The translations under genes were made by a program, and so were the position numbers. The notes under the pieces were generated by a model, which saw nothing but the letters and a program-made list of their open reading frames with translations, ran no database searches and was not told the DNA's origin. From positions 1 to 43,096 of the forward strand of contig CAINCQ010000042.1 in NCBI GenBank assembly GCA_903847095.1: a stretch of DNA of 43,096 nt, read 5' to 3'. Positions 30,329 through 35,176 of the stretch are shown piece by piece. This DNA is from an uncultured bacterium (GTDB lineage: Bacteria; Patescibacteriota; Minisyncoccia; Minisyncoccales; UBA5738). The number at the start of each line of letters is the position of its first letter. Position 1 is the first letter of the stretch.

Positions 30329-30357
30329 TTGACAAGAATAGTTATGTATGCTATAAT
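30329..30357 (+). promoter_or_regulatory. consensus sigma-70-type promoter
   Basis: TTGACA at 30329-30334, a 17-bp spacer and TATAAT at 30352-30357 make a perfect match. It would start a transcript with an approximately 310-base leader ahead of the GTG at 30675. Confidence 0.88.
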
Positions 30358-30404
30358 TATGGTATACAATTAAGCAAGTACCGTAGAAATTTTGGATTTT
30401 AATC

Positions 30405-30633
30405 GTTGAGCCGCGGTTCGGGCACAGTCCTTAATGATAATCTATCGAAGGACTTCCCGAATCGCCGCTCAACCCGCACTGTCGGGTACCTTGACCGGCG
30501 ATTTGGCGAGCCGTCTGCGCGGCTCCCTAAATTACCGGTCAACTTGGAAAGCAATTTTTCAATTTAATGTGATGGAAGTCTTTGGTGGCGGTTTGGGGGA
30601 TTGTCCTTGATAAAGGACTTCCCAAAACGCCAC
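30405..30633 (+). ncRNA. three-hairpin structured leader RNA
   Basis: Hairpin 1 (30405-30473) pairs GTTGAGC with GCTCAAC, GCGGTTCGGG with CCCGAATCGC (one G-U) and GTCCTT with AAGGAC across a small internal loop. Hairpin 2 (30491-30542) pairs TTGACCGG with CCGGTCAA and GAGCCG with CGGCTC. Hairpin 3 (30585-30633) pairs GTGGCG with CGCCAC, TTTGGG with CCCAAA and GTCCTT with AAGGAC around GATA. Hairpins 1 and 3 share sequence and shape, with one C-G to T-A compensatory pair. No T-run follows, so these are not terminators. Confidence 0.7.
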
Positions 30634-30674
30634 TTAGGGCGATTGTGATCAAGAATCCCAAGGAGGGTGAAAAG

Positions 30675-30956
30675 GTGAAGTTATTAAAGCCAGTGGATGA
30701 GGAGATGTTAAGGGCTATAAAGAACATGGCCCTCATGGCTATGGGAGCCAAAGAGTTGATTAGAAAATACGTGGCAGAGAAAAAACTGTCGGATATTGAT
30801 AGCCTTCTTTTGACAGAAGGTGATGATTTGGTTGAGAGGCTCAAGCACCTAGCAGAGATGGCGCCATTCTATGACGCCGATGGAGAGGGTACCGATAAAA
30901 AGGTGGATTGTCTTCCATCGGGCGGCAGATCTCTGTTATTTGGCCTATTTCAGTAG
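30675..30956 (+). CDS. unknown protein with structured leader
   Basis: GTG 30675 is chosen because AAGGAGG lies eight bases upstream (30660-30666). The upstream in-frame part overlaps the hairpin leader. The product has 93 residues, is mostly helical and charged, and includes MLRAIKNMALMAMGAKELIR and LLLTEGDDLVERLKHLAEMA. The stop TAG (30954-30956) begins the 3' arm of a small hairpin TGGCCTA/TAGGCCA. A second frame (+1) continues from the same area to 31317, so this may be the first part of a longer frameshifted gene. No family is recognised. Confidence 0.65.
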   Translation: MKLLKPVDEEMLRAIKNMALMAMGAKELIRKYVAEKKLSDIDSLLLTEGDDLVERLKHLAEMAPFYDADGEGTDKKVDCLPSGGRSLLFGLFQ

Positions 30957-31317
30957 GCCAGGACAGGGAATTAAGGCAGAGATGTTGCCGGTTAAAGGCA
31001 AGCACTGGGTGAGAGCAATTAAGGTTGCCGGAACCCAGTTATTTAGGGCAGCAGGGGAACTTGTTTCTCCCTATGCCATTGCCGATATAGATGGCAACAT
31101 CCGCATCGGAAACCGCGACCACCTTGATGGCATGCCCGACCTACCGGAAGGGACTTTGCGTGAGCAGAGAGTGCTCGCGAGAGAGGGAATCCGAACGACG
31201 ATGGGAATTGAGGGCCAATATCCGTTCCGGCCCGTTTCCATTTCCGGTCCGATCGAGGGCTGGAGGAAGGCGCTTGAAAGGATTGATCAAAGACTGAAAG
31301 AGAAACGGAATTCCTGA
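30871..31317 (+). CDS. unknown protein in +1 frame, overlapping the previous gene
   Basis: The frame runs from ATG 30871 to TGA 31317, up to 148 residues. A convincing coding stretch starts near RPGQGIKAEMLPVKGKHWV and continues through SPYAIADIDGNIRIGNRDHL to KALERIDQRLKEKR. No good Shine-Dalgarno precedes 30871. ATG 30981 is another possible start. The 86-base overlap with the upstream gene, and an A5 run at about 30896-30900, suggest either a ribosomal or mutational +1 shift or two coupled genes. No family is recognised. Confidence 0.55.
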   Translation: MTPMERVPIKRWIVFHRAADLCYLAYFSRPGQGIKAEMLPVKGKHWVRAIKVAGTQLFRAAGELVSPYAIADIDGNIRIGNRDHLDGMPDLPEGTLREQRVLAREGIRTTMGIEGQYPFRPVSISGPIEGWRKALERIDQRLKEKRNS

Positions 31318-31453
31318 ATCATTCCAAATGGAGAGGGAAGGACTCCAAAACTTAAATTTCTTTCGCAAATAAACCTTGTGGGAAAAGCGCGCCGCGCGGC
31401 ACGAGCCGCCAAAGCGTAATTCCTTCAAGGTTTTTCAATTTTATGGGTCGCAG

Positions 31454-31475
31454 GCGGTTTTAAGAACCGTTTTTT
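31454..31475 (+). terminator. intrinsic terminator
   Basis: CGGTT and AACCG pair around TTAAG and are followed by six T. It ends the preceding transcription unit. A longer AAACCTTG/CAAGGTTT pairing (about 31372-31434) lies just before it. Confidence 0.65.
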
Positions 31476-34507: not shown

Positions 34508-35176
34508 ATGGAAACGGGAAAGAATGCCAAGAACGCCATGATCGAGGCGTTCAGGAACAGAAACGCTGTATTGACCACAGAGAATCAGAGTCTGCGTGAG
34601 GCTCACGCGGCTGTAATAGTACAACGCAATGAAGCCCTGCAGCTGGCTAAGGAAAGGGGCGAGGCGCTCGAAGCGGCCTATGCCAGAATCAAGGAGTCGG
34701 AGCAGCACCGGGTCGAGGTCAGGAAGATCTCCAAGCCCGCGGTTGTAGCCAGAGTACACGTGAAACCCGTACCCAAGCCGGAAATGGCCCAGGTGTGGGA
34801 GGATCGGAGGCCATTCGGACTTCGCGTCCAAAGCGTGGTGGCTGAGTTCCTCAAGGCTTGGGGAAGAGCTCCTCGCGATCCGCAGCGGATCGCCTGGGAC
34901 AGGGCCTACCACATTAACGGTGCGTTGCTCGATGGAAAAGCCAAGTATTCTCTCGAAGAGATTATGGCCGCTGTAGAGTGGCTGGAGTTCACCCTGGGGG
35001 AGAAGAGGCATTCCGTCGAAGAAACCAGGGAATGGCTCACGATGTTAGTCGAGACCGAGGAAGATGAGCTTTGCCGCAAAGCTGCGTGCGAGCTCGCACT
35101 TCTCAATCAAGTATTCTTGCCAGAGCAAGAACAGCAAAAGGCCGATTTCGAAGGGGAGAGGGCGATTGCCGCCTAA
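34508..35176 (+). CDS. unknown coiled-coil protein, 222 residues
   Basis: Residues about 15-75 form a continuous charged coiled coil (RNAVLTTENQSLREAHAAVI, then EALEAAYARIKESEQ). A basic Pro/Val linker (VHVKPVPKPE) follows. A helical domain from about residue 95 contains AEFLKAWGRAPRDPQ and a Glu-rich tail. Codon choice is richer in CTG, GAG and AAG than in the restriction island. The promoter and Shine-Dalgarno are good. The build resembles a scaffold or nucleoprotein, but no family is recognised. Confidence 0.7.
   Translation: METGKNAKNAMIEAFRNRNAVLTTENQSLREAHAAVIVQRNEALQLAKERGEALEAAYARIKESEQHRVEVRKISKPAVVARVHVKPVPKPEMAQVWEDRRPFGLRVQSVVAEFLKAWGRAPRDPQRIAWDRAYHINGALLDGKAKYSLEEIMAAVEWLEFTLGEKRHSVEETREWLTMLVETEEDELCRKAACELALLNQVFLPEQEQQKADFEGERAIAA

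Follow-up and report, generated by a model that had tools for sequence, protein, structure and literature searches.

Three stem-loops (H1, H2 and H3) that follow one another behind a promoter in the 43,096-nucleotide stretch of DNA analyzed here, which we call the window, appear to be three copies of a modular RNA stem-loop domain from an uncatalogued non-coding RNA family of a small-genome, CPR-like lineage. We give a probability of roughly 55% to this reading, in which the three-hairpin RNA is followed in the window by a small, frameshifted and unshared ORF, and in which the hairpins would have a docking or stabilizing role rather than act as a switch for a ligand or for the product of the adjacent gene. 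Because related stem-loops occur in predicted free-standing non-coding RNAs of relatives, the domain looks like a reusable RNA part and not a switch for its neighbor.

Sequence and fold of the three hairpins

H1 and H3 had been described in a preliminary account of this DNA as related, duplicated hairpins, and they are. They share GCGGTT(C/T)GGG (30413–30422 and 30588–30597), GTCCTT (30427–30432 and 30603–30608) and AAGGACTTCCC (30448–30458 and 30613–30623), and their 3′ arms form a 22-nt direct repeat with 86% identity. The region 30360–30690 is predicted to fold with −132 kcal/mol, compared with −95 for shuffled sequences (z = −7.2), and 0 of 100 shuffles were equally stable. With up to three mismatches allowed, the pattern AAGGACTTCCCNAANCGCC is found in the window only at the H1 and H3 sites, against 0.15 matches expected in total, and the exact core has two matches in the 1.35-Mb genome, both of them these same sites. 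Across GTDB contigs the exact core occurs in at least 116 stretches from unrelated phyla with no common context, which we attribute to chance because the pattern is too short; an AT-rich match in one further genome (G128, L134) lacks the outer helix and was also set aside. At gathering score, the covariance models of Rfam 15 give no match in the window, and at the loci of all homologues, taken up to E 5 or E 1, the tRNA matches alone are convincing.

Table 1. Features of the hairpin locus in the window
Feature	Position	Strand	Evidence or remark
Sigma-70-type promoter, TTGACA-17-TATAAT with TG extension	30329–30357	+	Consensus match 12/12
H1 stem-loop module	30405–30474	+	Fold; blastn homologues in G001, G003 and elsewhere in G000; model R2, 85 bits; covariation
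H1 architecture: outer helix GTTGAGCCGCGGTTCGGG/CCCGAATCGCCGCTCAAC, asymmetric internal loop, inner helix GTCCTT/AAGGAC, AU-rich loop	30405–30474	+	
H2, probable diverged copy	30488–30545	+	Fold; homologues in G001 (C12) and twice in G000 (C24); arm similarity to H1
H2 architecture: outer helix CTTGACCGGCGATTTGG/CCTAAATTACCGGTCAA, GC-rich inner hairpin GAGCCGTCTGCGCGGCTC	30488–30545	+	
H3, shortened H1 copy with GATA-type small loop	30580–30639	+	R2, 59.5 bits (H3 is itself part of the R2 training alignment); direct repeat with H1
Shine-Dalgarno sequence AAGGAGG before GTG 30675	30660–30666	+	Sequence; unpaired in the predicted fold
Downstream coding region, two overlapping frames (30675–30956, 30871–31317)	30675–31317	+	Frameshifted or two-ORF unit
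Terminator-like hairpin AGGCGGTTTTAAGAACCGTTTTTT closing the transcript	31452–31475	+	Number of such hairpins about as expected by chance in shuffles

The hairpin between H1 and H3 had been taken for a third, different one. It is a hairpin, but probably not a different one: from their sequences, H1, H2 and H3 are probably copies of one domain, of which H2 has diverged. Of 5000 pairing-preserving shuffles, 3 attained the similarity seen between the H1 and H2 arms, and the models of H1 and H2 cross-match weakly, whereas the H2–H3 arm test alone is weak (78 of 5000). The related genome G004 contains a hybrid hairpin, in which an H2-type outer stem is joined to an H1-type inner stem. Its arm score with H2 is 25 compared with a shuffle maximum of 16, and its inner stem, GACCUU/AAGGUC, equals GUCCUU/AAGGAC after one compensatory swap; against the model it is a weak match (26–29 bits).

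A C-G pair in H1 that is T-A in H3 had been read as a compensatory change, and the reading extends beyond these two hairpins. In a six-copy alignment this C/T column and its G/A partner are C-G in three copies and U-A in the other three. Overall, 93% of the pairing cells of the alignment are paired, with double changes in 6 of 24 pairs, which 0 of 500 shuffles matched; sliding the alignment by one column lowers the pairing to ~53%. The covariation of H1-type hairpins is built on six or seven copies because the analysis covered only five genomes of the family.

Homologues and the orthologous locus

A blastn query from the window against 147 related genomes detected homologues in a congener (G001; E = 3e-33), in a sister genus (G003; 1e-11), at a second locus in the window's own genome (G000, C24; 3e-8) and at C33 of the congener (2e-8). 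Model R2, made from six copies, scores these homologues at 80–87 bits and matches G000 and G001 at two loci each, and H2 homologues occur at C12 of G001 and twice at the C24 locus of G000. Each genome has the module at few loci, and its orientation is always that of a predicted promoter. Spread through CPR genomes had been anticipated; copies do exist elsewhere, but narrowly, with strong R2 matches among the 247 genomes of the order falling within the window's family of five genomes. The CPR label itself comes from genome size and from the preliminary account. Since covarying homologues occur outside the locus, the motif withstands the earlier proviso that it might have no matches elsewhere, or matches in unrelated coding sequence without covariation. 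Three other R2 matches were discarded: one in G052 is 23S rRNA, and those in G085 (C10) and G224 lack matching context.

The orthologous locus in G001 keeps the promoter, H1 and H2, with the same promoter ahead of H1 (L131, 7601–7629), and lacks both H3 and the 30675 ORF, which in this comparison are present only in the window. The two loci share flanking genes, as 31569–32204 matches a 211-aa protein (E = 1e-10) and 34508–35176 its counterpart at 51% identity, and tRNA-Thr(CGT) and prfB lie downstream in both. Neither has the RNA core described below. The ORFs beside the module are unrelated between loci, and at the C24 locus of G000 and the C33 locus of G001 a start codon follows the H1-type hairpin at a distance of some 40 nt.

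In the window, the consensus promoter ahead of the hairpins and the Shine-Dalgarno sequence behind them are present as first described (Table 1). The region 30675–31317, which had been treated as one gene, consists of two segments in different frames, and joining them across their overlap (30871–30956) needs a +1 shift; the overlap could mean that the region is a pseudogene or two genes, that the assembly is in error, or that frameshifting is programmed. In 18 other related genomes the protein of this region is without a relative, and Pfam and PHROG give no confident match. Many copies of the motif upstream of homologues of 30675–31317 had been named as what would support a regulatory role, and no match is so placed. 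Near-identical 15-nt repeats (14/15) at 30555–30569 and 31431–31445 bracket H3 and the 30675 ORF, an arrangement that may be due to chance.

The core RNA that carries the module

In G003 and G004, a hairpin of this kind is a 3′ domain of a predicted free-standing RNA of ~390 nt, which comprises a promoter, a core with a three-way junction, a covarying predicted pseudoknot and a terminator-like hairpin that is reached before any ORF. The core is closed by a long helix, P1 (CCUGGGAAAAUGAUGG...CCAUCAUUUUCCCAAG). Just inside P1 lies a purine tract complementary to the loop of a 3′ hairpin, with 10–13 perfect pairs in four genomes; the tract varies by genome (AGAGGAAAGAGUU, AGAAGAGAGA, AGAGGAGAGAG), and in G003 and G004 it has changed while the pairing is kept. 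ARAGORN finds no tmRNA in the homologous loci.

The core model, R3, matches a single locus per genome in all five genomes of the family, and in four species the module comes after the core, in the same 3′ position; R3 matches in G084 and G238 are of low complexity or unclear and were set aside. In G003, tRNA-Thr(CGT) and prfB come next after the RNA. G002 has the core and a terminator-like hairpin upstream of tRNA-Thr and prfB, without H1, and H1 is therefore an add-on to the core. At the C24 locus of G000 and the C33 locus of G001, an H1-type hairpin comes after the core; small ORFs stand next, and then a 3′ region that contains the complementary pyrimidine tract.

In the latter locus, a 147-nt direct repeat (L132, 6488–6634 and 7254–7400; 91% identity) flanks the H1-type hairpin and a 176-aa ORF, which is weakly similar to an upstream 168-aa ORF (E = 0.007); judged from the sequences, this suggests that a unit of RNA and ORF was duplicated in tandem. 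The two species each encode, farther downstream than the large RNA, a protein of no known family (332/328 aa; L130, 5203–6201, minus strand, and L132, 7805–8791), with 60% identity between them and, for the L130 copy, no match in PHROG.

Related RNAs in the wider order

Similar RNAs are found in three other families of the order. A core-like element lies upstream of prfB in G053 (E = 5e-6 for the one genome and ~1e-3 over the search, both rough, as the model E-values come from short calibrations), and another lies directly after rnc-rpsP in both G085 and G104. By inspection rather than by model scores, we assigned three more: G117 and G026, reached through the pattern of a CUCUCUC hairpin, have a promoter, a purine box, the CUCUCUC hairpin and a purine-box helix in this order, and G154 has a short form of the arrangement. 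The purine box lies in a hairpin loop in several of these RNAs. Since the wider-order RNAs lack the H1 module, the latter appears specific to the window's family. Searched with one mismatch, the purine-box pattern mostly matches what resembles coding sequence, and only matches with the full architecture were retained.

Repeated GGAGAGAG (or GAAGAGAGAG) purine boxes, together with a hairpin bearing the complement CUCUCUC, are seen at L196 (1340–1790), L197 (1330–1630), L200 (minus strand), L231 and L234 (minus strand), and small unassigned ORFs follow. A kissing-loop or attenuator system is possible for these RNAs. On a broader reading, which we offer tentatively at somewhat less than even odds, the stem-loops of the window would belong, as accessory domains, to a large, modular and hitherto undescribed RNA of a single order of small-genome bacteria. 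Such an RNA would combine a three-way-junction core with purine boxes of the GGAGAGAG type and a CUCUCUC hairpin or loop complementary to them, and the small ORFs after or between its domains would change from place to place.

Function and alternative explanations

The order of promoter, long leader, good Shine-Dalgarno sequence and start codon in the window is what one would expect of a cis-regulatory leader of 30675–31317, in which a protein, perhaps the gene's own product, binds the duplicated hairpins to control translation or transcription. The hairpins ~40 nt upstream of start codons at the second loci of G000 and G001 would fit as well. Nevertheless, we regard such regulation as unlikely. 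The orthologous G001 locus retains H1–H2 without the gene, the downstream ORFs are unrelated from locus to locus or missing, the 30675 gene is frameshifted as well as without relatives in the 18 genomes, and the copies in G003 and G004 precede a terminator-like hairpin, not an ORF. The Shine-Dalgarno sequence is unpaired in the minimum-free-energy fold, so no expression platform is visible, and H1–H3 contain no terminator-like site, although alternative folds are possible. Autoregulation by the 30675 product, as raised in the preliminary description, is unlikely on the same grounds, namely the lack of gene association, the orthologue without the gene, the terminator-like end in G003 and G004, and the unpaired Shine-Dalgarno sequence. 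The more general proposal there, of an undescribed regulatory RNA or protein-binding site, survives in part: an uncatalogued structured RNA is supported by the absence of Rfam matches and by covarying homologues elsewhere, but its link to the downstream gene is not, as no copy lies upstream of a homologue of 30675–31317. Transcription attenuators or terminators, which such stable, GC-rich stems so close to the start of the transcript might suggest, are very improbable, given that no U-tract follows H1, H2 or H3 and that a terminator scan returned none of them.

The scatter of copies over unlinked loci raises the question of a REP- or MITE-like palindrome that spreads by copying itself from one intergenic site to another, the pairing being a by-product of palindromic DNA ends. 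The hairpin is present in the G003 RNA and absent from the G002 RNA at the same tRNA-Thr–prfB site, and the 147-nt repeats around the H1+ORF unit in G001 and the 15-nt near-repeats around H3 and the ORF in the window (the latter perhaps fortuitous) would be in accordance with mobility. We nonetheless find this account doubtful, as there are only two or three loci per genome, copies invariably lie on the sense strand and have a fixed position behind the RNA core, they differ by compensatory changes, and no target-site duplication is evident around H1 itself. Dispersal of a palindrome could still be the route by which copies reached new loci, which is compatible with a later function. Integron attC sites have outer boxes ordered RYYYAAC...GTTRRRY; H1 reads GTTGAGC...GCTCAAC, the opposite order, and other copies have not retained its outer boxes, so it was not assigned to this class.

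Under the modular-domain reading, the window hairpins would form the 5′ part of a transcript able to act as a small structured RNA, to which H3 and the 30675 ORF may have been added downstream in the window's species. The hairpins might dock a partner, protein or RNA, that they have in common with the large RNA, or they might stabilize the transcript; this role, suggested by their shape and reuse, is the weakest step of the proposal.

Comparison with known RNAs

We found no account of such an RNA in Patescibacteria among the open-licence papers searched, and to our knowledge few regulatory RNAs from small-genome candidate-phylum bacteria have been described. The large structured RNAs GOLLD, ROOL and OLE are non-coding and contain pseudoknots or kissing loops, and GOLLD and ROOL are phage-borne and often near tRNAs (PMC12286853). 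The present family resembles all three in its predicted pseudoknot pairing, and GOLLD and ROOL in having one locus beside tRNA-Thr, whereas its RNAs match no Rfam model. The pairing may form within one RNA or between two, and no sign of multimers was seen. The G003/G004 RNA is also shorter than GOLLD and ROOL, at ~390 nt, and a phage origin was set aside, with no blastn match in phage records and no viral relatives for two neighboring proteins.

Hairpins with asymmetric internal loops ahead of a Shine-Dalgarno sequence and start codon recall autoregulatory protein-binding leaders, such as those of ribosomal proteins, but here no downstream gene is conserved and the module is also present in RNAs that lack an ORF. 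With REP/BIME elements it shares the character of a repeated imperfect palindrome in intergenic DNA; it differs from them in its two or three loci per genome, its fixed strand and position in an RNA predicted to be transcribed, and its covariation.

For the interpretation of such loci, the window offers a caution, in that a structured leader ahead of an ORF need not regulate that ORF. Within the family, the module can be traced from a bare core (G002) through a core with a hairpin (G003 and G004) to a hairpin with small ORFs (G000 and G001), and this series provides a testable case of a structured RNA gaining domains and neighboring small genes.
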